40,323 nt of DNA from Alistipes sp. (lineage in GTDB: Bacteria > Bacteroidota > Bacteroidia > Bacteroidales > Rikenellaceae). The stretch covers positions 1 through 40,323 of the forward strand of contig JAFNYX010000047.1 in assembly GCA_017654125.1 (NCBI GenBank). Direction: 5' to 3'. The stretch's first letter is position 1; every line of letters begins with the position of its first letter. Positions 6,941 through 40,323 of the stretch are shown here, in pieces. A model generated the notes under the pieces. That model saw only the letters and a list, made by a program, of their open reading frames with translations, made no database searches and had not been told where the DNA came from. The position numbers were made by a program, and so were the translations under genes.

Positions 6941-8548
6941 CTACACAACCTCTGCCACACGGCGTTTGATGCGTCCGACAACCCCTGCGCCAACACTGAA
7001 CGACCGCAGACCGCAATCGAGCAACAGGGCCGTAGCCTCCTCGTCCGACGCAAATTCGCCACACATTCCACACTCGATACCCGCCTCCGCAGCCGCTTCG
7101 AGCGTTCGGCGTATAGCCTCGACAACCGCCTCCGAGCGCGGATTGCATAACGATGCAACCTTCGCATTGGTACGGTCGGCAGCCATAACGTATTGTGTAA
7201 GGTCATTGGTGCCGATACTGAAAAAATCGCACTCGGCAGCAAGCGATCGCGCCACAAACACTGCCGCCGGCGTCTCTATCATCACACCGAGAGGTAGATG
7301 TTCGTCGAAAGCCACGCCTTCCGCCCGCAACTCTTGCTTGCACTGCTCCAAAAACGCCTTCGCCTCGCGCAACTCCTCGACCGACGTCACCATCGGCAGC
7401 ATCACACGCACGTTACCCGCCACGCTTGCTCGCAAAATAGCACGCAACTGACGCGCGAACACATCGCGCACTTCGAGCGACACGCGGATTGCGCGCCACC
7501 CGAGGAAAGGATTTTCCTCTTTGGGCATCGGCATATAAGGAAGTGGTTTATCGCCTCCCACATCGAGCGTACGAATTGTGAGTGGTCGCCCGTCACACGC
7601 CGCAGCGGCTGCCGCATAGTGTTCCGCCTGCTCAATCTCCGATGGCTCGGCATCGGTAAGCATATATAGAAATTCGCTACGGAATAACCCCACTCCGTCG
7701 GCACCGTTCTCGATAGCCATACGCACCTCCTCGACACTGCCGGCATTGGCTCGAACCGTGATTTTTCGCCCCTCGGCATCCCTCAACTCGACACGTGCTG
7801 CCTCGCGGTCGCGGTCGCGCTGTTGGCATTGAGCCTCCATTCGCGCACGATACTCACCAAGCGTCGCCTCATCCGGCTCGACGATAACCTCGCCGGCCGA
7901 CGCATCGACCACAATCTGCACCCCATGCGGAATCTGCGCCACGACATCGCCCAACCCGACAATTATCGGACACGAACGACTGCGCGCTATGATACAGACG
8001 TGCGACGTCGCACCGCCCTCGCCCATCACAACACCTGCCACCTTTGCAAAGTCCATCATCGCCACATCCGATGGCAAAAGCAGCGTATCGACCACAATAT
8101 CGCCGGCGCGCACCCCATCGAACGGATTGCACACGCCCCCCGTCAAGTTGGCTTTGATGCGCGCAAAGATATCGCGCACATCCATTGCCCGCTCACGCAG
8201 ATATTCGTCATCAATGGCCTCAAACACAGCCACCATCTCCGTCTCCGACACTTCGACCGCCGCAATCGCCGACAATCCCTCGTCGATATGACCTTCGACT
8301 ATCTCGCGCAGCGCATCGTCGCGCACCATCTCCAAATGTGCCGCAAAAATCTCCTCCTCGCGGCTTATCGCCTCAATCTGCAACTCACTCGCCATGAGCG
8401 CATCACGAAAACGCGCGCACTCCGTTGCGGCATTACCCTGCCACTGCACCTGCGTTTCACCCTCCACGCACCGCTCGCGTCGAACAACGTATGCTCGACC
8501 GATAGCAATGCCCTCCGAGGCACGAATGTGTGTTGCAAATCGTCTCAT
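6941..8548 (-). CDS. ptsI: phosphoenolpyruvate-protein phosphotransferase (PTS Enzyme I)
   Basis: The general PTS kinase takes phosphate from PEP and passes it to HPr. The protein is 535 residues, somewhat shorter than the usual 570-575. The phosphohistidine domain motif GGATSHVCIIARS includes the active-site His183. The C-terminal PEP-binding barrel shows ENPFLGWRAIR, the PEP-utilising signature FFSIGTNDLTQYVMAADR and the catalytic cysteine in CGMCGE near residue 495. All key residues are present, so it should be active. It is the last gene of an apparent operon with the glycerophosphodiesterase, mtlA and ptsH; it starts about 25 bases after ptsH. Confidence 0.94.
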   Translation of the reverse strand: MRRFATHIRASEGIAIGRAYVVRRERCVEGETQVQWQGNAATECARFRDALMASELQIEAISREEEIFAAHLEMVRDDALREIVEGHIDEGLSAIAAVEVSETEMVAVFEAIDDEYLRERAMDVRDIFARIKANLTGGVCNPFDGVRAGDIVVDTLLLPSDVAMMDFAKVAGVVMGEGGATSHVCIIARSRSCPIIVGLGDVVAQIPHGVQIVVDASAGEVIVEPDEATLGEYRARMEAQCQQRDRDREAARVELRDAEGRKITVRANAGSVEEVRMAIENGADGVGLFRSEFLYMLTDAEPSEIEQAEHYAAAAAACDGRPLTIRTLDVGGDKPLPYMPMPKEENPFLGWRAIRVSLEVRDVFARQLRAILRASVAGNVRVMLPMVTSVEELREAKAFLEQCKQELRAEGVAFDEHLPLGVMIETPAAVFVARSLAAECDFFSIGTNDLTQYVMAADRTNAKVASLCNPRSEAVVEAIRRTLEAAAEAGIECGMCGEFASDEEATALLLDCGLRSFSVGAGVVGRIKRRVAEVV

Positions 8549-8572
8549 AACTATTCTCTGTTTTTGCCCACG

Positions 8573-8833
8573 CTAATCGCGGATTGACGCCAGGAACGCA
8601 ACCACACGTTGCAGGTTGCCCTGCTCGTCGCCACCCTCGGCCGTCACCTCAATCTCCGTACCCGACTTCAAACCGAGCGACAGAAGTGCCAGCATCGACG
8701 ACGCGTCGATACTCTTCACCTCGGTTGCCAAGCGAATCTTGCCGTCGAGCGACTTGACCAATCGCACCAACTCCCCTGCCGGACGTGCATGCATACCGTG
8801 CGGAGCTGTGAGCGTAACTTTCTGACTTGTCAT
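8573..8833 (-). CDS. ptsH: phosphocarrier protein HPr
   Basis: This 86-residue HPr has the active-site histidine at the canonical position 15 (HGMHARPA, residues 12-19), which accepts phosphate from Enzyme I and hands it to the EIIA domain. A serine at position 46 (KSIDASSM) corresponds to the regulatory site used by HPr kinase in other bacteria; no hprK is visible here. It lies between mtlA (27-base gap) and ptsI (24-base gap) in one operon, giving a complete phosphorelay within three genes. Confidence 0.95.
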   Translation of the reverse strand: MTSQKVTLTAPHGMHARPAGELVRLVKSLDGKIRLATEVKSIDASSMLALLSLGLKSGTEIEVTAEGGDEQGNLQRVVAFLASIRD

Positions 8834-8860
8834 ATCTTGTCTCTGTTTTATTCTTCTCCT

Positions 8861-10747
8861 TTATTCGCCTCCGAGAATCTGTAAAATATACCCCGGATCG
8901 GTGGTGGTTTTCAGGCGATTGAGCACTCGCTCGTCCTCCAACGCCTCGCTAACACGCGCAAGCAATTCGAGGTGTTCGTCGCCGATACCCGCAATGCCGA
9001 TTACCAACTGTGCACGCTCCTCGCCAAATGCCACACCATCAGGGAACTGCACCACACTGATACCCGTATGCAACACCTCGCTCTTCGCCTTTGCCGTACC
9101 GTGCGGAATGGCAATACCCATACCGAGGTAGGTTGTGGTGATGGTTTCGCGCTCGGCCATAGCATCGACATACTCCATATTCACATAGCCGCCCTTGACA
9201 AGCAGGTCGCCCGCCATGCGGATTGCCTCCCACTTATCCGCCGCTTGCTCACCGACACGAATCGACTCCATACGCAGAATCGGGAAGTCGCCCGACGCTC
9301 GTTGCACGGCTATCATCGCCTCGGCGGATGGTTGTGTTGTGGCACGCTTGCCCGAAGCAAACTCCTCGTAGAGCGCATCCAGCGCAGGGTCTTCGAGGAA
9401 ATTGACCAACTCGACAACCCTCGCCTGCGGAGCAGAACCGCGTGCACGACCCGCCAACTGCTGTTGGCACACCACGATATCGGCCGTCGGCGGAACGGAA
9501 CTAACCGAAGCGTAACCGACCTCAACATCCTCTATGCCGAGCGATTGTAGTCGCTGACGGAAACGTGTCGCTCCCAGCGCACTCGAACCCATACCCGCAT
9601 CGCATGCAAAGACTACATGGCGAACATCGGCAATACTACGTGGCGTGACGGCCGAAGGTGCAGAGGTTGGCAAATTCTGCGCTGCATCACGCTTATATTT
9701 AGGCAAGAACGGATTATCGGGGAGCTTATCGTCACTCTTCGACGAGCGACGAATGATGAGGGCTGACGTAAGGAACGTAACCGTCGCGGCTATGAGCACA
9801 GCCGCCACCAACAGCAACGTCTTACCCTTCGGCGCCATCAGTATAACCGAAATTATACTGCCGGGCGAAATCGGGCCCACCAAACCCGCGTGAACAAGCG
9901 TCAGGAAGAGGATGCTCGACGACGCACCGAGAATCATCGGCACGATAAGCAACGGACGCGAGAGCACGTACGGATAGTATATCTCGTGAATACCACCGAT
10001 AAATTGGATGAGTATCGCACCCGGAGCCGAACTGCGCGCCGTACCGCGACCAAAGACCCAATATGCCATCAGCATACCGAAGCCCGGACCCGGATTCGAT
10101 TCGAGGAAGAAGATTATCGACTCGCCAAACTCCTTCACCTGCACCGTTCCGAGCGGAGTAAGGATACCGTGATTGATGGCGTTGTTGAGGAACATAACCT
10201 TTGCCGGCTCGATAAGAATCGAGACACACGGCAGCAGATTGGCATCTTTCAGCGCAACAATACCCTCGCCAAAGAGCGTCGTCAGCGCCGAGACAGCCTT
10301 GCCGATGGTCAGGAAGCCGACGATGGCGAGCAACATACCGATAATACCTATCGAGAAGTTGTTCACCAACATCTCGAAACCGGCACGGATGCGACCCTCG
10401 ACCGCGCGGTCGAAACGCTTGATAATCCAACCCGCGAGCGGACCCATAATCATCGCACCGATAAACATCGGCACATCACTGCCGACAATGACGCCCGCCG
10501 TAGCCACCGCAGCCGTCACACCACCACGCACACCGGCGACGTTATGACCCGCCGTATAGCCGATAAGCAACGGTAACAGATAGGTAAGCAACGGTGCGAC
10601 CAGCGCGCCGAGTCGCTCGTTCGGACACCATCCCGTCGGGATGAAGAGTGCCGTAAGCAGACCCCACGCAATAAATGCACCGATATTCGGCATGACCATC
10701 GCGCTGAGCGAACGGCCGAAATTCTGAATTTTATCCCTCAACTCCAT
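8861..10747 (-). CDS. mtlA: PTS mannitol-type permease, fused EIICBA
   Basis: The 628-residue fusion has EIIC (about 1-340, membrane), EIIB and EIIA domains, matching E. coli MtlA (637). The EIIC part has the family signature GGIHEIYYPYVL. The EIIB phosphocysteine lies at residue 382 in CDAGMGSS (Cys384 in E. coli), and the EIIA phosphohistidine at about 549 in GMGIAIPHGTAK (His554 in E. coli). It imports and phosphorylates a hexitol, most likely mannitol to mannitol 1-phosphate. The reading frame extends 27 codons further upstream, but the ATG at 10747 fits the family start (MELRDKIQNFGRSLS). No mannitol-1-phosphate dehydrogenase (mtlD) is seen in the window, which leaves the fate of the product open. 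Confidence 0.92.
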   Translation of the reverse strand: MELRDKIQNFGRSLSAMVMPNIGAFIAWGLLTALFIPTGWCPNERLGALVAPLLTYLLPLLIGYTAGHNVAGVRGGVTAAVATAGVIVGSDVPMFIGAMIMGPLAGWIIKRFDRAVEGRIRAGFEMLVNNFSIGIIGMLLAIVGFLTIGKAVSALTTLFGEGIVALKDANLLPCVSILIEPAKVMFLNNAINHGILTPLGTVQVKEFGESIIFFLESNPGPGFGMLMAYWVFGRGTARSSAPGAILIQFIGGIHEIYYPYVLSRPLLIVPMILGASSSILFLTLVHAGLVGPISPGSIISVILMAPKGKTLLLVAAVLIAATVTFLTSALIIRRSSKSDDKLPDNPFLPKYKRDAAQNLPTSAPSAVTPRSIADVRHVVFACDAGMGSSALGATRFRQRLQSLGIEDVEVGYASVSSVPPTADIVVCQQQLAGRARGSAPQARVVELVNFLEDPALDALYEEFASGKRATTQPSAEAMIAVQRASGDFPILRMESIRVGEQAADKWEAIRMAGDLLVKGGYVNMEYVDAMAERETITTTYLGMGIAIPHGTAKAKSEVLHTGISVVQFPDGVAFGEERAQLVIGIAGIGDEHLELLARVSEALEDERVLNRLKTTTDPGYILQILGGE

Positions 10748-10789
10748 ATTTTTCGTTGTTCTGTTTCGTATTAGGTTTACTCTCGCAAC

Positions 10790-10812
10790 TGCCATACCAC
10801 AGGGGCGTGGCA
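10790..10812 (-). other. imperfect hairpin between the phosphodiesterase gene and mtlA
   Basis: In the 85-base gap, TGCCATACC (10790-10798) and GGCGTGGCA (10804-10812) can pair with one mismatch and one G-U wobble around a 5-nt loop. No T-run follows on the minus strand, so it is not a standard terminator. It could stabilise the mRNA or adjust expression of mtlA relative to the upstream gene; this is a weak inference. Confidence 0.3.
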
Positions 10813-10832
10813 GATACGCGTGGCGCAAAGCA

Positions 10833-28293: not shown

Positions 28294-28301
28294 CAAATTT
28301 A
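28294..28301 (-). promoter_or_regulatory. candidate -7 box of the THUMP-like methyltransferase gene
   Basis: A perfect TAAATTTG box on the minus strand, 26 bases before the ATG at 28268, overlaps the last codons of comEC. No TTTG is found 19-21 bp upstream, so the call is weak. Confidence 0.35.
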
Positions 28302-29774
28302 CGAATTTTTATGAAAAACCGATGTGTTATCGCGCCGAAAACCCCACAAAAAGATGGTAATCGCCACATACACGCCATACGCAATCCACATCGTCTGCTC
28401 CGATGCGGCATATTCCACGTACGCACCACCTACGTCGGCTGCACGATGTATGATTTCGTTTTGCAGCGCAGCCATCCACTCGGCCACCTGCGCCGTAAGC
28501 CCTGCCAACGGCCGTGGCAGAAGGAGCGAGAGGAGCGTGGCAAGCAACAGCAGATTGGCCGAAAGTATCACGAGTGGACCAAGCACCACACCAACGAGCG
28601 ATACCACACCAAAGGTGTGCGAGACGAGCGGCATCACCCACAGCGAGGCAACCCATCCGATTGCCAACATATTGCACAATGCGCGCGGCAGACGATACGG
28701 AATGTGGACCGAGCGCATCAGTGGCACACCCCAAAAGATGATGCCGGCAACCGCTGCAAACGACATCCGGAACGAGAGGTCGAACAGTAAATCGGGATTC
28801 ACGACAAGCATCACAAATGCCGTCGCACACAACACATTGCCACTCACATATCCGCGCACAGCACTCAAACACAACTGCATCACCGAGAACATCGCCGCCG
28901 CACGAACGGCACTCGGCGAGCCACCACACACGAAAACGTACAACCACAGCGCACCAATCACCACCGCCGTTCCGATGGCGTTTCCGTGGCGAAGCAGTGC
29001 AAGCGGCCAAACGAGCAGATTTATCAACATGAAGAGAATCCCTACGTGCAGACCCGAAACAGCCAACAGATGCGACGCTCCGGTGCGCGAATATGCAGCG
29101 TAGGTTGCAGCCCCAATCTCCGAGCGTTCGCCCACGCCCATCGCAAGCGTAACGGCTCGCGCCTCGCCTTCGGGCATCATCGCACGCAGGCGGTCGATAG
29201 CAAGCGTGTGCAGCGATGTTGTTCGTCGTGGCTGATAGCCGATAATCTGCTCCCGACCGAGAAAGGCACTGCCGAGGTATCCGCGATGGTACATCAGCCG
29301 TCCGAAATCACCACGCGCGTAGTCAAACCTCCGTATGCAAAGCATCGCCTCCACACGTTCACCCTCCTCGAATCGTACCGCCGGTGGAGAATAGATACGC
29401 AGACGCACCCCACGCTCTACCCCGTCGCCACTCAAAACCTCCGCCGACGAGGAGCAGTAACGCTCGCCAACGACACTCTCCGAGGTGAAGTCAAGTACCA
29501 CGCGACAGTGTTCGTCATAAGGTGGCAGAGAGGGCCTACTCGCGTCATAAACACCTGCACCAAAGCAAAATATAGCAAATAGTCCGACCACTTCGCGCCA
29601 CTCCTTCACGCAGACCGCCGCCGCTGCCGCCATAAACACCAACACCACCCACAGCCACACTGCGACATCGACCACATCGGAAAACAAAATGCCGACGACA
29701 AGCGATGCGACCATCGCTGCCATCGGCATTTCGTTCAAGCGTTCGTATATGTTTCGCAAAGAAAATTTACGCAT
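28299..29774 (-). CDS. comEC: ComEC/Rec2 family DNA uptake channel protein
   Basis: A 491-residue polytopic inner-membrane protein of the ComEC/Rec2 family, the channel that carries single-stranded DNA into the cytoplasm in transformation. After two N-terminal helices there is a soluble OB-like part (EGERVEAMLCIRRFDYARGDFGRLMYHRGYL split by helices in the family). The competence domain follows, with the signature SRTGASHLLAVSGLHVGILF (about 228-247) and GGSPSAVRAAAMF. The C-terminal metallo-beta-lactamase domain found in many ComEC proteins is absent, as in other short Bacteroidetes versions. It directly follows the phage-derived operon on the same strand but has its own promoter box. Confidence 0.9.
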   Translation of the reverse strand: MRKFSLRNIYERLNEMPMAAMVASLVVGILFSDVVDVAVWLWVVLVFMAAAAAVCVKEWREVVGLFAIFCFGAGVYDASRPSLPPYDEHCRVVLDFTSESVVGERYCSSSAEVLSGDGVERGVRLRIYSPPAVRFEEGERVEAMLCIRRFDYARGDFGRLMYHRGYLGSAFLGREQIIGYQPRRTTSLHTLAIDRLRAMMPEGEARAVTLAMGVGERSEIGAATYAAYSRTGASHLLAVSGLHVGILFMLINLLVWPLALLRHGNAIGTAVVIGALWLYVFVCGGSPSAVRAAAMFSVMQLCLSAVRGYVSGNVLCATAFVMLVVNPDLLFDLSFRMSFAAVAGIIFWGVPLMRSVHIPYRLPRALCNMLAIGWVASLWVMPLVSHTFGVVSLVGVVLGPLVILSANLLLLATLLSLLLPRPLAGLTAQVAEWMAALQNEIIHRAADVGGAYVEYAASEQTMWIAYGVYVAITIFLWGFRRDNTSVFHKNS

Positions 29775-29797: not shown

Positions 29798-29831
29798 CAA
29801 ATTTAATATTTTTCTACGAAAAATCTGCAAC
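29798..29831 (-). promoter_or_regulatory. candidate comEC promoter
   Basis: On the minus strand, GTTG (29828-29831), a 22-bp spacer and a perfect TAAATTTG box (29798-29805). The spacer is one base longer than the usual range. The -33 side lies in the last codons of the P5-like gene. The predicted leader is about 17 nt. Confidence 0.5.
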
Positions 29832-30224
29832 AAATAACTGCCACCCACCTAAAACCTCGCTCTCCACGGCCGGCACACCATTCTCGACCTCCGACATCGC
29901 CCGCACGAGAGGAATCATCACACCCTGCGAGAGCGTGTCGAGCGCAAGGTCGGGGGCAAACCCCGTAGCTCGCGCCACACGACGAATGTAGCCATCCGTA
30001 TCGTTCTCCGAAGGCGGAGCATATCGCGAAACGATTTGTCGAAGCGTCGTGCAGTGGTGCTTCACGGCGTAGGTGTGCAACAAGACGAACATCGCGCGAT
30101 AGCCCGCCTCGATACTCTCGAACTGACGAAATTCGGGGTCGCTGCTCACGGCACGCTCGCCCTTGTAGCGCACCGCCGAGCGACGGATGTTGCCGGGATT
30201 GAGGTTACGCAATCCGCGACTCAT
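29814..30224 (-). CDS. phage P5-like structural/lysis protein
   Basis: A 136-residue protein (ATG at 30224, one base after the holin stop). The N-terminal RGLRNLNPGNIRRS is the hallmark of 'structural protein P5'-type proteins found in Bacteroidetes prophages, and the following helical domain (YRAMFVLLHTYAVKHHCTTLRQIVSRYAPPSENDT in shorter units) resembles small lytic-transglycosylase-like folds. It probably degrades peptidoglycan during cell lysis or entry. Its place directly after a holin, at the end of the operon, supports a lysis role. A longer frame up to 30248 exists, but the 30224 start places the conserved motif at the N-terminus. Confidence 0.78.
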   Translation of the reverse strand: MSRGLRNLNPGNIRRSAVRYKGERAVSSDPEFRQFESIEAGYRAMFVLLHTYAVKHHCTTLRQIVSRYAPPSENDTDGYIRRVARATGFAPDLALDTLSQGVMIPLVRAMSEVENGVPAVESEVLGGWQLFVADFS

Positions 30225-30225
30225 T

Positions 30226-30660
30226 TTAACTGTTTTCATACTTTTCAATCTCCTTTTTCATTCGGTGACGAACATATCGGCGCAACCACCCGAATAGGCG
30301 GGCATCGGAGAGCAGTGATGCGTTTTCGAGAAACGACCACATCTCCACACCGCAGACCATACCGGCAAACATACGTGTCAGGTGTAATTCCACGAAGTTG
30401 AGTATGCAGCTCTCGACCATCCACATCATCCCGATTGCCGTCACGACAAAGCCCGCTTTGAGCAGCGTGCGCCACGCCTCGTGGCTCTCGAAGTACCACG
30501 CCTGTCCACGTCGTCGCGTCTCGACACGGCTCGCCGCCGTACCCGTAACGAAATCGACCAGCACAAAGACCAGCGCACAACACACAATCGGTCGAATCGG
30601 CGCAAAAAGCGCAACGATGCCCATCACCGCAGCATTAATGTATCTGTATAATGTCTCCAT
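30226..30660 (-). CDS. phage holin family protein
   Basis: A 144-residue membrane protein with two or three hydrophobic segments (about 9-38, 68-90 and a weaker one near 96-110) and a highly basic, charged C-terminus (RRYVRHRMKKEIEKYENS in two pieces). The loop VDFVTGTAASRVETRRRG with the following WYFESHEAWRTLLK is typical of Bacteroidetes phage holins. Such proteins open the inner membrane to let a lysin reach the wall. The frame extends upstream to 30867, but that part is antisense-like; the ATG at 30660 gives the normal holin start. It overlaps the previous gene by 26 bases. Confidence 0.78.
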   Translation of the reverse strand: METLYRYINAAVMGIVALFAPIRPIVCCALVFVLVDFVTGTAASRVETRRRGQAWYFESHEAWRTLLKAGFVVTAIGMMWMVESCILNFVELHLTRMFAGMVCGVEMWSFLENASLLSDARLFGWLRRYVRHRMKKEIEKYENS

Positions 30661-31111
30661 AGAGCGAACATCTCTGTACGGCATCCCTTGCCACGTTATA
30701 CTCCGGATACTCATCTGCGTGCGCTCGGAGGTGTTCCGAGAGGCGCCGCACCGCCGAGCGACGTCGCTCGACAAGCGAGCGTTGCAGTGCGTCTGCCGCA
30801 GCCGCCGAGGCCGCCGAAGCCGCTTCACAATCGGCCACAACAAGACCCGCCTGACCGGTCGAGACATTCAACGCACGTTGGAGCATCGTGCGCACCGAAA
30901 ACGCCACGGCCGGAGCCACATACTCTTCGAGCAACGCCTCGTATTGTCCGTCAAGCAGCGCATCGCGAAGCGACTCTCCGAGAACAGGCGTCACGTAACG
31001 CGCCTCGGCAGCAGCGATATCGTGCAACGAAATGGCATCGGCCGCAAGATAACCACCGTCGGAGAAGGCAAGCGCGATGGTTTGTTGAGGTGTGATAAGT
31101 GTTTGTATCAT
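30635..31111 (-). CDS. phage DUF6712-like protein (probable head-tail connector)
   Basis: A 158-residue, mostly helical, alanine-rich protein. The order of segments (DIAAAEARYVTPVLGESL, then LLEEYVAPAVAFSVRTML and a C-terminal helical region) resembles DUF6712-type proteins found next to portal genes in Bacteroidetes prophages, where a connector or head-completion role has been proposed. I recognise the family only by pattern and context. It starts 4 bases after the portal gene and overlaps the holin gene. Confidence 0.6.
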   Translation of the reverse strand: MIQTLITPQQTIALAFSDGGYLAADAISLHDIAAAEARYVTPVLGESLRDALLDGQYEALLEEYVAPAVAFSVRTMLQRALNVSTGQAGLVVADCEAASAASAAAADALQRSLVERRRSAVRRLSEHLRAHADEYPEYNVARDAVQRCSLYGDIIQIH

Positions 31112-31115
31112 ATCG

Positions 31116-32330
31116 CTATCCTACTTTTGTTATGTTATACTTGGTTATCTCCGAGAGGTATGCCTGCTGACGCTCATCCTCCGCATCGTAGTCCAAGCCA
31201 TCCGCCTTACGCGCCTCCCACACCTTCATATATATAGGTTTCGAACGTGTTGGCGGACGGTTGATGATGGTGAGCGACGACGCGTCTATGCCCAACACGC
31301 GACCGATAATCTGCACAATCGGTTCGAGCAACTCGGCCTGCTCGCTTAGGATGACCGTATTGAGCGCAATCTCGTACTCGTGCAGGATGCGCTCCGAGCT
31401 GAAACCCGACGAGTAGTCGAGACCACTGAGCGAGCGAAACCACGAGTGGGCAACAACGATGTCGCCGGTCGCCTGGTCGTGCAACTCCTTCCAATCGCCG
31501 TCGTTCTGCGACGTAATCGGTATGAAGCGCGAATTATCCTTGTCGCTACCGTTCTTGACAACAAACAGCACCTGTCCCGGATTGCCCGCAAAGCGCGACT
31601 CGGCGTAGCGCACCAGACGGTTGGCATCCGCCTCGTTATCGACCGCCTCATCGACAATCATCATACCCGAGGGTTGGAACGAATTTTCGAGGCGGGCAAT
31701 ATTCCAACGGTCGGTTTTATAGGTTATGGCCGACACGTTCATACCGGCAATGTATGGTGGCACGCCATAGTGCGAAAAGCACGGCTCGTAGTCTTTATAG
31801 TGGACAATCGAGCGCAACGTGCCATCGCTCTGTTTCTCGAAGGCTGGATAGAGTGGCAGCGATACGGCATCGCGAATGGTGAACGAATCCCAATCGTGAT
31901 GGAGCAGGATATGGCGCGAATCCTTCGCCACACGACAACGCGACGCATCCTGATGATAGAGCGAGAGGAACGTGTGTTGCGGGTCGGTCACCACCTCCAA
32001 AAAGGCGTTACCGAAGAGCGACTTATCGAAGGCAATCTTGTTGATTATCTGTCGCAAACTCTCGTTGTCGCCATTCACGCGCCCGACAAACACACCGAGC
32101 AGCGGTACCTCGTGGTCGAAGGCCACGCCCTTGCCGGAGATGTAGTCCGCCTTGTCGTTGATGATTCGACGGTGGGCGGTCGAGCGACGCGACATTGCCG
32201 CCAGCGTGTCCGGCAGACGGTTGTCGCTGCCCCAACGCCAGAAGTCACGGTCGGAGACGACACCTCCCGCAGAGAATGAGTCGGTGGTCGTTACGCCGCA
32301 TACGGTCGATTTATTGATAGTTTTTTCCAT
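31116..32330 (-). CDS. phage portal protein
   Basis: A 404-residue protein that resembles Bacteroidetes phage portals. The N-terminal FWRWGSDNRLPDTLAAMSRR and STAHRRIINDKADYISGKG are characteristic, as are the central LFGNAFLEVV and the later GDWKELHDQATGDIV and SGLDYSSGFSSERILHEYE. The portal is the ring at the capsid vertex through which DNA is packaged and leaves. In tailed phages the portal usually sits beside the terminase and upstream of protease and capsid; here it comes after them in transcription, and no terminase is present. Confidence 0.8.
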   Translation of the reverse strand: MEKTINKSTVCGVTTTDSFSAGGVVSDRDFWRWGSDNRLPDTLAAMSRRSTAHRRIINDKADYISGKGVAFDHEVPLLGVFVGRVNGDNESLRQIINKIAFDKSLFGNAFLEVVTDPQHTFLSLYHQDASRCRVAKDSRHILLHHDWDSFTIRDAVSLPLYPAFEKQSDGTLRSIVHYKDYEPCFSHYGVPPYIAGMNVSAITYKTDRWNIARLENSFQPSGMMIVDEAVDNEADANRLVRYAESRFAGNPGQVLFVVKNGSDKDNSRFIPITSQNDGDWKELHDQATGDIVVAHSWFRSLSGLDYSSGFSSERILHEYEIALNTVILSEQAELLEPIVQIIGRVLGIDASSLTIINRPPTRSKPIYMKVWEARKADGLDYDAEDERQQAYLSEITKYNITKVG

Positions 32331-32869: not shown

Positions 32870-33832
32870 CTATCGCGTATAGGCCCACGATACCATATCC
32901 GGATTGAGGATGGCCGTACCGGCGAGGAATACCGCACGCTGGCGATTCTCCATCTCCTCCGGATTGTACCACATACGCACCTCGTTCTCCGGCGTATCGG
33001 CCGTATTGAGAGCCAAGACCATATTGCGACGGTCGGTCAGCACGCAGAAGGTCTTTGGATAGGAGTACTGTTGGAACGAAAGCGAAACCTCGATAACCGG
33101 AATGCCGTGGTAGGTGAGCGCCGAAGCACCGTCGGAGGTGAAGTTGTACGCCAAATCGCCACCCTTCTCGTCGAGGTATGCGAGGTACTTGTTGTAGATG
33201 TCCGACGAGACATAATAGACAAGTTTGCCGTCCGAGCGCAACGACTTCAACTCGCCCGAAGCACCTTCCCAGCAAGCGTCCATAACATCCTTACCGGTCT
33301 TAACCTCGTCTTCGAAAAGGTAGCTTGCAAGGTTTGTGTCACCTGAATCGGCAATGGTTTCAATGTGCTTCAAGAAGCCGTCGAACGTATCGAAGTTCGA
33401 CTTCTCGCCACTCATATCACCCAACCACATCGTTGCATATACGCCCTTAACTATCGCGTAACGGAAGAGTTCGGTCTCGATTTTTTCGAGTTCCGTACCC
33501 GTCAAGTCGCCGAAATTAACATCCGACGATGCCAAAATATGCTCATACACGAGTGACGAGTAGTCGTCAGCCGAGAAGCAATTTTCGGCCTTCACCTTCT
33601 GCAAATCGATTGTCATCTGCTCTCTGTTCGAAACATTCGAGCCGTTCCAACCGCTGCTGAACTTTTGGAGGAGATTCACGTTGTGGTTCCAAAACGTTAC
33701 GTTTGTCGGCACCGGCATATTGTAGAGTACGCGAACGCCGAGCTCGTCGGCAGCCTTGCCCGTAAATGTCGGGATGAAGAAAATATCTTCGAGTTCCTTG
33801 CCCTTATAGGTCTTTGAATTTTCGATAATCAT
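32870..33832 (-). CDS. probable phage major capsid protein
   Basis: A 320-residue protein. The N-terminal part (KTYKGKELEDIFFIPTFTG, then GVRVLYNMPVPTNVTFWN) and central features (FRYAIVKGVYATMWLGD; YYVSSDIYNKYLAYLDEKG) resemble Bacteroidetes phage capsid proteins of the HK97-like type; the C-terminal third (PVIEVSLSF, NMVLALNTADTPENEVRMWY) fits the same pattern. The assignment rests on recognition of the pattern and on the adjacent ClpP-type protease. An A/C-rich, repeat-containing 70-base leader precedes it, compatible with high expression. Confidence 0.68.
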   Translation of the reverse strand: MIIENSKTYKGKELEDIFFIPTFTGKAADELGVRVLYNMPVPTNVTFWNHNVNLLQKFSSGWNGSNVSNREQMTIDLQKVKAENCFSADDYSSLVYEHILASSDVNFGDLTGTELEKIETELFRYAIVKGVYATMWLGDMSGEKSNFDTFDGFLKHIETIADSGDTNLASYLFEDEVKTGKDVMDACWEGASGELKSLRSDGKLVYYVSSDIYNKYLAYLDEKGGDLAYNFTSDGASALTYHGIPVIEVSLSFQQYSYPKTFCVLTDRRNMVLALNTADTPENEVRMWYNPEEMENRQRAVFLAGTAILNPDMVSWAYTR

Positions 33833-33902: not shown

Positions 33903-34766
33903 CTACCACTCGCGACGCAACAACTGCGCATCACGACTGTATGCCGTCGAGTTTGCCGAGAGCGGTACACCATCGAGCGGCGGGTCCTCTACGGGGCAGG
34001 TCGAGGTGGGACGAACGGCATTCTGACCCTCGCTCAACACGATTGCCGAGTGGAGTGAACGGTCGAGCGGATGCAGCACATTGTGACCCGCGACGGGAGC
34101 CGACGCTTCGCAGGCAGAGGATTTGGTTCCGATGCCCAACCATTCGCCGATACGCGCTACGACACCCTTCGGTGCGGCGCTCTCCGGCGTGATAATCGCA
34201 TCGACCAACCCATACGAGAGAGCCTCCTCGGGCGAGAGCCATCGACCATTACCTCCATTTTCGTTCATCAGCGCGACAAACTCCTCGCTGTTGCGACCCG
34301 AACGCAAGCCGTAGATTGCAGCAAGTCGCTCGTCGGTCTTACGCAACAGTGCTACCTGTGCATCGAGTTCGGAGGCGTTACCCTCCGCCGCACAACTCGA
34401 ACGGTGGATAAGGTAGAGTGCCGAAGAGGCTATCTCGCGACAACCCTCGCTTGCCGCCTGTGCAATGATGGTCGCAGCCGAAGCGGTATAGCCGTAACAG
34501 CGTGTGGTAATTTGGGCATCGAGAGCCAACAGCGCCTCGTAGATGAGCAGCGCATCGTTCACATCGCCACCCGACGAACGGATGTTCACCACCACGCGCG
34601 GCGATTCGATTTCGGAGATACGCTCCACCTCGCGGCGAAACTTTTCGTAGGTTGCAATTCGCTCGTCGGGCGTTTCGAACTGACACTGCTCTGGAACGCC
34701 TATTGTGCCTTCGATGTCGATTACGCAGAGCGATGCCGAATCTGAGATTTTCATCATTTGTTCCAT
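33903..34766 (-). CDS. ClpP-type phage prohead protease
   Basis: A 287-residue protein with a ClpP/SppA-like fold. The strand-turn RSSGGDVNDALLIYEAL (63-79) is typical, the catalytic serine is Ser96 in GYTASAATIIAQAA, and the histidine is His121 in LIHRSS. The region after about 200 is proline- and serine-rich and unlike ClpP, as in phage scaffolding-protease fusions. Such enzymes trim capsid and scaffold proteins during head maturation. It lies directly upstream of the capsid gene, the usual pairing. Confidence 0.82.
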   Translation of the reverse strand: MEQMMKISDSASLCVIDIEGTIGVPEQCQFETPDERIATYEKFRREVERISEIESPRVVVNIRSSGGDVNDALLIYEALLALDAQITTRCYGYTASAATIIAQAASEGCREIASSALYLIHRSSCAAEGNASELDAQVALLRKTDERLAAIYGLRSGRNSEEFVALMNENGGNGRWLSPEEALSYGLVDAIITPESAAPKGVVARIGEWLGIGTKSSACEASAPVAGHNVLHPLDRSLHSAIVLSEGQNAVRPTSTCPVEDPPLDGVPLSANSTAYSRDAQLLRREW

Positions 34767-38624: not shown

Positions 38625-38786
38625 AAGGTAGTAGTTTTGGTTAATAAGTTTGTGGAATATTTGTGGAAACGCAACAATAACTCCGCCTATCGTGCGGATA
38701 CATAGCGAGTTATGTTGTTGATAAATGTTTTCGACAATGACGAGTCGCGTGTCGAAAACCGCAGGGCGAACGCCCGTTTCACGGTG

Positions 38787-38828
38787 CAAATATATAACAT
38801 GCATACCCCCCTTGTCAAGAGTTTCGGG
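38787..38828 (-). promoter_or_regulatory. promoter of the phage-derived operon, with extended upstream element
   Basis: On the minus strand, CTTG (38816-38819) is followed by 21 bp and a perfect TATATTTG box (38787-38794). The upstream element, CCGAAACTCTTGACAAGGGG plus two more G, covers 38807-38828. It matches the plus-strand promoter at 38957-38978 in 20 of 22 positions, far more than the promoter consensus needs, so it is probably a binding site for a shared activator or a special sigma factor. Confidence 0.75.
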
Positions 38829-38956
38829 CACTTTTTTTCGAGAAATTTTTTGCCCCATCGCGCAACCTCAACAGCAATAGGACATTGCGTCGCAAAAAAT
38901 TTTTCGGATGGCGCGCAAGTCAGAATTATTCAAAAAATTTATTTTGCTTTTTTCGT

Positions 38957-38997
38957 CCAAAACTCTTGACAACGGGGGTCGCGGCATATTATATTTG
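38957..38997 (+). promoter_or_regulatory. promoter of the cysteine-peptidase unit, twin of the phage-operon promoter
   Basis: CTTG (38965-38968), 21 bp, then TATATTTG (38990-38997). The extended element CCAAAACTCTTGACAACGGG plus two G occupies 38957-38978. The spacing between element and -7 box is identical in both promoters. Transcription should start near 39004, with a leader of about 138 nt before the ATG at 39142. Confidence 0.75.
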
Positions 38998-39141
38998 CCG
39001 CCGAATCGATTCCCGAATGTGGTCCGTTCGACACTCTGTCGGGCAGCGCGCAGACCACAATCAAAAAACACATTAAACAATCTATTTTTCTAACAAAAGA
39101 CCGAGCAACTCTTGCGCGGTCGCAAAAAATCATTTATCTTT

Positions 39142-40140
39142 ATGAAAAAATTTGAGAAAGAACTTTTGTTCTCGCAGGTAGAAGGCGAGACAACAACCGG
39201 CAGTGGCAATGGCACTACGGGCGAAAATGCAGGTGAGGGCGAAAACGATGCTCCGGAGCAGGAGCCGGTTGATGAAGGCGCCGAAGCGGACAACAACATG
39301 TATGACGGACAGGATGGCACTTCCTCGGGTCAAACTCCTGATGGACAAGGCAACTCCTCGTCCGAGCAAACACAAGATGGACAAAACAGCTCTTCCTCCG
39401 GACAAAATCCGGAAGGACAAGGAGCAGACTCCGGTTATGGTTGGGAAGAAGATATTCCAAGCGTAATAATAATCGGTCACCCTCCTGTTGACAACGAAGA
39501 AGAGCCCGACGAAGACGAAGGTGATGAGTATGAGAATAATGATGTAAACGAGGACGACACGCAAAAATCAACAGAGCAGTCGGAGGAGGAAACTGAGGAA
39601 GTTGATTATATCATCCCACCTCTTGCGCAATCTTTAACGAATCGTCCGCCAGAAGCCGTTGCTAATGGTTTTTGCCTATTAGGTTGCTGTATGTGGGCAT
39701 TTTATAAAATATTTGGAATTAGACCTGTTTTTAATTTCGTAAAATCTATTGCGGACGCTGTAACCAATAATGGATTTAATGGAATTGGATATAACAACAG
39801 ATTTGATATTAGTATCTTGCAAGATATTTGTAATCGATACATCAACGAACTCAACCTTCAAATATATTTAACAATAAGAATACCCAAGGTAGAACAAGGA
39901 GAATTATACCCAGATATAACTCCATATATTCCAGAATTACGTTATTACTTAAACAATAACGCCGGAGTAATAGGAATATACTCAACAAGCAATCATTCTG
40001 AACATGCCGTACTAATTACTGACATAGAAGACAATGGGTATTACAAATATATTGACCCTGTAACAGCAACTGAATATGCTAGTGACCAACCACTAAAAGA
40101 TAGCAAATTTAACCGTTTTTATAGTATTATTAATCGCTAA
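39142..40140 (+). CDS. acidic repeat protein with papain/C39-like cysteine peptidase domain
   Basis: A 332-residue protein. The N-terminal 170 residues are hydrophilic, very acidic and low-complexity, with 12-residue tandem repeats at 55-98 and no signal peptide or membrane helix. The C-terminal 160 residues look like a papain-like domain: a cysteine-rich segment GFCLLGCCMWAF (176-187; candidate nucleophile Cys178), His288 in SEHAVLITDI and Asp305 in YKYIDPVT, a C39-type triad order. The second half is strikingly AT-rich against the GC-rich host and the next gene, suggesting a recently acquired, exchangeable module. An upstream TTG at 39112 could start translation but is less likely. Its function is unknown; an effector, toxin or maturation protease are all possible. 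Confidence 0.7.
   Translation: MKKFEKELLFSQVEGETTTGSGNGTTGENAGEGENDAPEQEPVDEGAEADNNMYDGQDGTSSGQTPDGQGNSSSEQTQDGQNSSSSGQNPEGQGADSGYGWEEDIPSVIIIGHPPVDNEEEPDEDEGDEYENNDVNEDDTQKSTEQSEEETEEVDYIIPPLAQSLTNRPPEAVANGFCLLGCCMWAFYKIFGIRPVFNFVKSIADAVTNNGFNGIGYNNRFDISILQDICNRYINELNLQIYLTIRIPKVEQGELYPDITPYIPELRYYLNNNAGVIGIYSTSNHSEHAVLITDIEDNGYYKYIDPVTATEYASDQPLKDSKFNRFYSIINR
39304..39435 (+). repeat. 36-base tandem repeats coding for a DGQ-rich linker
   Basis: Three full copies and a partial fourth of a diverged 36-base unit (39304-39339, 39340-39375, 39376-39411, 39412-39435) encode the 12-residue pattern (D/E)GQxxxSSxQxx, for example DGQNSSSSGQNP. They lie between the N-terminus and the acidic spacer of the peptidase-like protein and are a likely site of copy-number change. 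Confidence 0.75.
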
Positions 40141-40142
40141 AA

Positions 40143-40323
40143 ATGAACAAGACCCTTGCAATAATACTATTACTCTTGTTGGGCATCGCCGAGTGCGTTG
40201 CCCAACAAAAAGAGTTCGACCTCTTTGCAGACCCGGCAACGGGACATTACATTTTCGACTACATGCCGTGGGAGTTTCAAGAGCCACAAAAGTTTATCGC
40301 AGAGCAAAAGAAAAAGCACCCAC
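40143..40323 (+). CDS. secreted protein, N-terminal part (partial)
   Basis: Starting at ATG 40143, 2 bases after the stop of the peptidase-like gene, 60 codons run off the right edge. The first 20 residues are a signal peptide (MNKTLAIILLLLLGIAECVA, cut before QQK). The mature start (EFDLFADPATGHYIFDYMPW) is not a family I recognise. Base composition returns to the GC-richer style of the region. Its tight spacing makes it part of the same transcript, so the peptidase-like protein may act with a periplasmic or surface partner. Confidence 0.75.
   Translation, partial: MNKTLAIILLLLLGIAECVAQQKEFDLFADPATGHYIFDYMPWEFQEPQKFIAEQKKKHP

Follow-up and report, generated by a model that had tools for sequence, protein, structure and literature searches.

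Twin promoters beside a phage-derived operon belong to a promoter class that probably marks dispersed, domesticated phage genes in Alistipes

The two divergent promoters that separate a phage-derived operon from a predicted cysteine peptidase gene in an Alistipes genome are probably two members of a promoter class that marks a dispersed, domesticated phage in this genus, most likely one of the gene-transfer-agent-like kind. The class has TATATTTG at near-fixed spacing from a near-perfect −33 TTGACAA, which is usually followed by a G/C run. The twin promoters occupy positions 38,787 to 38,997 of a 40,323-nt stretch of DNA from Alistipes sp. (contig JAFNYX010000047.1 of assembly GCA_017654125.1), which we refer to as the window. 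As in a co-regulated regulon, the same promoter stands before unlinked, functionally related genes, at three places in this genome. A sequence-only reading of the window had taken the operon and the peptidase unit to form one co-expressed system. This was partly right: the peptidase family keeps a similar promoter away from the operon, but the two units alone are not the whole system. The operon is near-universal whereas the peptidase leader is rare (see below), and the promoter class also covers spanin-like, ATPase/primase-like, and some terminase loci.

The promoter of the operon (38787..38827, minus strand) consists of the element CCGAAACTCTTGACAAGGGGGG (38806-38827, with the −33 TTGACAA at 38812-38818) and the −7 box TATATTTG (38787-38794). 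The promoter of the peptidase unit (38957..38997, plus strand) consists of CCAAAACTCTTGACAACGGGGG (38957-38978, with TTGACAA at 38966-38972) and the same −7 box, TATATTTG, at 38990-38997. Direct checking of the sequence confirmed that 20 of the 22 bases of the elements are identical, that both elements are accompanied by TATATTTG, and that the distance from CTTG to this box is 21 bp in both promoters (with a gap of 11 bp between element and box). At three or fewer mismatches, the element matches twice in the window, and none of 100 dinucleotide shuffles reached two matches. The copies are 129 bp apart in inverted orientation, and their spacer and downstream sequences differ. The extra identity had been read as the mark of a shared regulator. 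The identity is indeed not a matter of chance, and across Alistipes the orthologous operon has kept the left promoter, but the regulator itself we infer. Two further ideas about the paired elements were rejected. The first was a DNA-inversion switch; by reasoning, a flip between the inverted elements would swap only the upstream halves, and both promoters would keep their direction. The second was a palindrome around TTGACAA (CCCTTGACAAGGG) serving as a general operator, which, judged by eye, fits some species and not others.

The whole assembly (1.71 Mb in 128 contigs, 82% complete) was searched for the element. The exact core, AAACTCTTGACAA, has three matches (the twin promoters and one on contig C35), and the reversed control has none. 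The match on C35 is again accompanied by TATATTTG and lies ahead of the gene for a 220-aa DUF6549-family protein, which we read as putatively spanin-like from its coiled-coil look and gene company. One-mismatch forms of AAACTCTTGACAA occur at five further places, all within long coding frames. The strict form of the promoter, TTGACAA-N16/17-TATATTTG, was found only at the twin promoters and on C35. The looser TTGACA-N17-20-TAnnTTTG was found at seven places, these three included; the other four are upstream of a thioredoxin-like gene, upstream of a gene for a 497-aa secreted protein, inside a coding frame, and at a site left unassigned. The element is thus not spread before many unrelated genes of this genome.

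The left promoter serves a ten-gene minus-strand operon. It begins with P139 (38205..38624; 139 aa, no assigned role), 162 nt from the −7 box, and P320 (37178..38140; also with no assigned role), followed by the large protein P794 (34797..37181; a tail or hub protein is guessed from position only). Next are a ClpP-type head maturation protease (33903..34766; Pfam PF00574, 8e-27, and phrog_94, 1e-35), the probable major capsid protein (32870..33832), the head-region protein P159 (32364..32843; named by synteny, with no PHROG match), and the portal protein (31116..32330; phrog_11226, 3e-19). The operon ends with a DUF6712 protein (30635..31111; PF20459, 1.5e-12; its position suggests a head-tail connector as a guess), a holin (30226..30867; PF05105, 4e-9; this is the longest frame, and the true start is probably further in), and an endolysin or transglycosylase-like protein (29814..30248; phrog_873, 3e-40). 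The capsid protein is named through its homologues, 23 of 26 of which match phrog_1623 (virion structural protein) and three of 26 phrog_212 (major head protein); it has no meaningful match in PDB. The portal protein also matches TIGR01540 (portal_PBSX, 4e-19), below the cut-off of that model, and PF04860, just below its cut-off. Neither P320 nor P794 has a usable match in Pfam, PHROGs, NCBIfam, or PDB, and P139 has none in Pfam, PHROGs, or NCBIfam. Database profile searches recognized no tail or tape-measure gene and, in Alistipes, no small terminase gene.

Wherever its genes are recognized, the operon keeps one gene order across genera g1, g9, and g20; P139 is recognized in 32 of 64 loci, and some loci likewise lack P159. 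A gene that we take to be a comEC-like DNA-uptake gene (28299..29774) lies about 40 bp beyond the end of the operon, on the operon's strand. A comEC-like gene adjoins the operon in 37 of 76 Alistipes loci. Of the 68 loci with sufficient sequence, 34 have comEC within 2.2 kb after the operon, and 41 have a methyltransferase-like gene within 4.5 kb. Because this neighbor is the same in 41 loci, part of the genus shares one operon site; in the other 27, the methyltransferase-like gene does not follow the operon. As a separate observation, the operon leader (window 38625-38786), like its relatives in L053-L072, is rich in TTATCAACA- or TTATCGACA-like words, which resemble DnaA boxes.

The promoter is conserved along with the operon. 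Of 80 capsid loci, 16 were dropped for want of 1.1 kb of upstream sequence or an assignable first gene, and in 58 of the remaining 64 the strict form lies within 1.3 kb of the operon's first gene. Three of the other six have the promoter further upstream, and three have a near-miss. Four of the 16 dropped loci, in which the upstream sequence is short, carry the strict promoter as well. In the 1.47 Mb of capsid loci, the sole other strict match is the twin at L191, which is taken as G091. Further conserved features of the 66 structural promoters are an A-tract 14–18 bp before TTGACAA, a C immediately ahead of this heptamer (63 of 66), and a G or C two bases (65 of 66) and three bases (66 of 66) beyond it; the sequence downstream of the −7 box begins with a conserved CACYGTCAT. 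Several dyads beyond this box led us to test for RNA hairpins at the 5′ end. For 68 structural-class leaders, the mean folding z over their first 36 nt was −0.39 (controls, −0.21 and −0.34), and at 40 other loci it was −0.52 (controls, −0.22 and −0.87), which is no specific signal, and an Rfam search gave no match near gathering scores.

The genes themselves appear to be kept. Homologues of P320 are present in 113 of the 150 genomes of the family and, within the genus, in 61 of 62. No listed P320 match has an internal stop, and only G052, which is outside the genus, has two matches, these being adjacent pieces. The large terminase gene, terL, was found in 133 of the 150 family genomes and 60 of the 62 in the genus, and some genomes have further, more distant copies; two copies have a stop, both outside the genus, and one copy within it (G072) is in two pieces. 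For dN/dS we used the ten closest locus pairs under 97% capsid identity, some members being shared between pairs. The values were 0.07–0.27 for the capsid and 0.06–0.15 for the portal gene, and the highest were 0.74 (one holin pair) and 0.50 (one P794 pair). By sequence comparison, the operon genes are evidently under purifying selection and are maintained, not decaying. Moreover, terL and P320 co-diversify, although they are unlinked. With the 54 genomes from which both genes were taken, the Mantel r between their distances was 0.69, and it was 0.82 over the 49 Alistipes genomes (0 of 9999 permutations); in 40 of those 49, the nearest neighbor by P320 is among the three nearest by terL. Together with near-universal presence in the genus, this comparison of the two genes with each other would fit vertical inheritance.

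An ordinary or decaying prophage would account for the phage-like gene content, and for a TerL that has terminases of Bacteroides fragilis phages (B40-8/B124-14) among its closest matches, at ~48% identity over 98%. We nevertheless regard a prophage as very improbable. The genes are near-universal in the genus and free of internal stops in the listed genus matches (aside from the terL in two pieces), and they combine a constant gene order and low dN/dS with a terL that is unlinked yet co-inherited. Unlike the terminase, the capsid and portal proteins of the Alistipes operon have no Bacteroides phage among their matches. Capsid relatives number 235 in genome contigs, and the 80 loci kept are from Alistipes, Rikenellaceae, or Bacteroidales; virus collections contain very few of them (nine short contigs in IMG/VR and, among 50,697 phage records, a single unannotated faecal one). 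In the order-wide sample, seven of 295 genomes match, three of them Rikenellaceae and four weakly. An active prophage should also form one contiguous, excisable unit, and here, as in other Alistipes, the operon and terL are unlinked.

In the assembly studied here, the operon, terL, and the spanin-like gene are on three contigs (terL on C16, L144). Two near-complete genomes show the genes far apart. On the single contig of G087 (3.38 Mb), the positions are 1.26 Mb for P320 and 3.27 Mb for terL, a distance of 2.0 Mb (1.4 Mb if the contig is circular), and on the 3.79-Mb contig of G101 they are 1.11 Mb and 3.75 Mb. In the related genus g20, terL is within ~6 kb of P320 in five genomes (G037, G059, G071, G100, and G109), where a CI/LexA-like repressor gene is next to terL, and genomes with no close pair include G019 (where the genes are on different contigs), G045, G053, and G080. 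In genus g9, three genomes have the two genes 16–26 kb apart, and in G008 the separation is 223 kb. We infer that the state in which terL is close to the operon is the older one.

A divergent repressor homologue lies beside terL in this genome and in 27 of the 30 loci L147-L176. The copy in this genome has HTH and S24 domains and is a candidate for the common regulator. In G057, a homologue of the small terminase subunit (phrog_309) is found between terL and the repressor. It should be noted that terL of this genome has a promoter without TTGACAA, with TTGAAC-like half-sites near TATCTTTG. When up to 1 kb was examined at the 30 terL loci, the strict form was present in seven, and 17 had no TTG-TAnnTTTG promoter. 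By eye, the terL–repressor intergenic region (L144 and L147-L176) has TTGAAC-like half-sites, which in some species take the form GTTCAA-N3-TTGAAC, a possible operator; such half-sites were seen at terL and none at the twin promoters. This leaves two possibilities: the common element may be a strong core promoter that answers to more than one switch, or the S24 repressor may control terL on its own.

Within the genus, the strict form is present in 95 of 101 genomes, with no match for the reversed control. We examined 41 promoter places, one in this genome and 40 in 14 relatives, hand-chosen to include places other than the operon. Of these, 30 precede phage-derived genes (AAA1, 14; AAA2 plus primase-like, three; spanin-like, six; structural operon, six; terL, one). 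The other 11 are before cellular genes (two ferritin-like and one transporter-like), before no recognized gene (five), or at contig ends (three). At unlinked sites, promoters of this class are found ahead of spanin-like, primase-like, and AAA ATPase genes, and some species have one ahead of terL. AAA1 is patchy: at our threshold it is in 44 of 150 family genomes and absent from this one, and weaker matches may be other AAA proteins. Separately, we observed AAA1-type promoters with no recognizable AAA gene behind them (L110, L113, L136, and L142) and some AAA1 copies with stops, as though these modules were gained and lost over time.

Outside the genus the picture changes. In a Bacteroidales-wide sample, the strict form occurs in 99 of 295 genomes, and the reversed control matched in 19. 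By eye, nine of 13 order-level promoter regions with the G/C run are before queA-, uppP-, or greA-like genes and four before other cellular genes; none of the 13 has a phage-derived gene of the Alistipes set. Because housekeeping genes in other Bacteroidales families carry TTGACAA, the G/C run, and TATATTTG together, the element is not private to phage genes, and instead of a dedicated operator it may be a promoter close to consensus.

These results bear directly on an explanation with no shared regulator at all, in which TTGACAA-N17-TATATTTG is a very strong primary-sigma promoter and the phage-derived genes happen to keep a near-consensus form of it. The housekeeping genes of other families favor it, as does the number of genomes with the strict form across the order, and in Alistipes itself ferritin-like genes have TTGACAA promoters without the G/C run, and a thioredoxin-like gene has the looser form, also without the run. 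We think this explanation possible, if rather unlikely, given that the places examined in Alistipes mostly precede phage-derived genes. A run of three G/C after TTGACAA also occurs in 67 of 90 genus rows but in only 13 of 90 order rows outside the family (the first 90 listed rows of each list; rows are phylogenetically correlated, so that a test probability is not to be taken at face value). In addition, consensus promoters left unrepressed ahead of lysis and capsid genes should be costly. The published Bacteroidota primary-sigma promoter, as given in an excerpt of PMC7366714, has TAnnTTTG at −7 and TTTG at about −33; the Alistipes class resembles it in the −7 box TATATTTG, but has TTGACAA and the G/C run in place of TTTG at −33.

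The right-hand promoter leads to a gene (39142..40140, plus strand) that encodes a leader, an acidic linker, and a C-terminal domain. This domain looks by eye like a papain-like cysteine peptidase; the identity is predicted from Cys and His motifs, and the domain has no usable match in Pfam, NCBIfam, or PDB. Behind this gene begins one for a signal-peptide protein (40144..40323, plus strand), truncated where the contig stops; in L297, too, a gene of similar kind follows. The leader was found in four of 180 genus genomes: the Alistipes sp. of the window, G091 (88% identity), and G149 and G192, which match weakly (38–40%, E 3e-5 and 2e-4). Leaders of the family share GEGEND...AEAD. The C-terminal domain is exchanged: in G091 and G149 its place is taken by another domain, in which an EExxHA motif was noted by eye. 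As a minor observation, the acidic linker of the G091 homologue (L052 10800-11100) contains a repeated block, NNMYDGQDGSSSGQTPNGESDPTSGTVLIDP.

The surroundings of these homologues are informative about the pairing of the two units. In G091, the peptidase unit is beside the operon and both promoters are conserved. Adjacency of this kind is found only in this genome (G000) and G091. In G149, the peptidase gene is on a different contig from the operon, ~13 kb from the repressor gene, and in G192 the contig ends inside the peptidase gene, with other genes upstream. The homologues in G149 and G192 have similar promoters all the same (CCCTCTTGTCAACCGC...TATATTTG and AAACTCTTGACAACGGGG...TATCTTTG), and in all four species the −7 box of the peptidase-family promoter is followed by GAATCGATTC, a perfect palindrome of 10 bp (window 39003-39012; L052, L297, and L298). 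Since a similar promoter accompanies the peptidase family even in two species that have it away from the operon, co-expression would be no mere by-product of adjacency. We regard this as the strongest evidence available, and it supports placing the peptidase in the promoter program by regulation and not by chance neighborhood. The peptidase unit would then be a rare accessory added to the program in this species.

One could instead suppose that the twin arose by recent inverted duplication of a promoter segment as the peptidase cassette settled by the operon, any co-expression being incidental. The short distance between the copies, their inverted orientation, and the restriction of adjacency to two genomes are what such a duplication would leave. 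We consider it quite improbable, because the peptidase family occurs elsewhere in G149 and G192 with a similar promoter, because the spacer and downstream sequences of the copies differ, and because a conserved GAATCGATTC of its own lies downstream of the peptidase promoter in each of the four species.

On the preferred reading, that of a promoter class marking a domesticated, gene-transfer-agent-like phage, the parts could work together as follows. The primary sigma factor would read the strong TTGACAA-TATATTTG promoters, and a shared switch, perhaps the S24 repressor or something under its control, would hold them off. Upon induction, the head, portal, and lysis genes, the terminase, and the accessory modules would be expressed together. 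Capsids would package DNA through terL, and the holin, endolysin, and spanin-like protein would release particles. Such a particle would carry host DNA, acting like a gene transfer agent, and could not pass on its own genome, because no capsid-size piece of DNA could carry all the loci. The comEC-like gene that ends the operon region in roughly every second locus would be in keeping with recipient cells taking up the DNA, which we offer as a suggestion only.

The main alternative to a gene transfer agent is a phage-derived killing particle, PBSX-like, or some other capsid device, with the peptidase as part of its effect. PBSX of Bacillus subtilis is a GTA-like element that acts as a tailocin, according to an excerpt of PMC12946183. 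In favor of this alternative, the nearest model for the portal is that of the PBSX portal, and the peptidase family has a recurring leader and exchanged C-terminal domains. PBSX is a domesticated phage, as the Alistipes set probably is, but no sequence relation was seen beyond that portal model, which scores below its cut-off. Conservation of terL and the capsid suggests DNA packaging, and the peptidase leader is in few genomes. For these reasons, we judge a killing particle to be unlikely.

Six features are listed in the definition of a gene transfer agent, as excerpted from PMC9662315, and two of them are seen in the Alistipes system. Its proteins are derived from Caudoviricetes (terminase, portal, maturation protease, capsid, and holin, here read from gene sequences), and it is fixed in the host genome at several loci. 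The definition further lists co-diversification with the host through vertical descent, inability of the agent to package its whole genome, a cargo made up mainly of random host DNA, and delivery of that DNA to recipient cells. As to packaging of its own genome, loci more than 1 Mb apart would probably be too distant for any plausible head. The same excerpt places the genes of RcGTA at five loci. RcGTA and BhGTA resemble the Alistipes system in that genes from a tailed phage have become fixed at several places in the host genome; unlike them, the Alistipes system is in Bacteroidota, several of its loci are linked by a common promoter class, and no tail set is recognized. The FpGTA of Faecalibacterium, as described in the excerpt of PMC12946183, is a single 10.5-kb operon, near-ubiquitous in its genus, with particle DNA evidence. 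It is likewise a GTA-like phage-derived operon in an abundant gut commensal, but the Alistipes operon and terL are unlinked and described here from sequence. That excerpt also reports GTA-like packaging in Ruminococcaceae, Oscillospiraceae, and Christensenellaceae, and lateral transduction, not a gene transfer agent, in Bacteroides. Among the titles and abstract openings of the matches listed from open-licence literature, none describes a gene transfer agent for Alistipes or Rikenellaceae.

A fuller version of the preferred reading can be stated, although, taken as a whole, it is improbable. It would posit a Bacteroidota gene transfer agent, near-universal in Alistipes and present in other Rikenellaceae genera, whose scattered structural, lysis, terminase, and replication-like modules are largely on one promoter class. 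Some species would have armed it with a peptidase, the leader loading into the particle or releasing with it and the catalytic domain being exchanged. Alistipes and its family are abundant in the gut, and PMC12946183 counts Rikenellaceae among the most abundant families in the total community DNA of that study. If the gene-transfer-agent reading is true, a major gut genus would have a permanent means of exchanging genes, through a DNA-packaging system that is conserved and run by the host, and the promoter class would provide a simple sequence handle for finding the parts of the system and its on-switch.

Finally, in another part of the window (6941-10828), Enzyme I-like, HPr-like, and mannitol-type EII-like sugar phosphotransferase genes, named by eye, lie in a row. 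Such sugar phosphotransferase system genes are uncommon in Bacteroidales.
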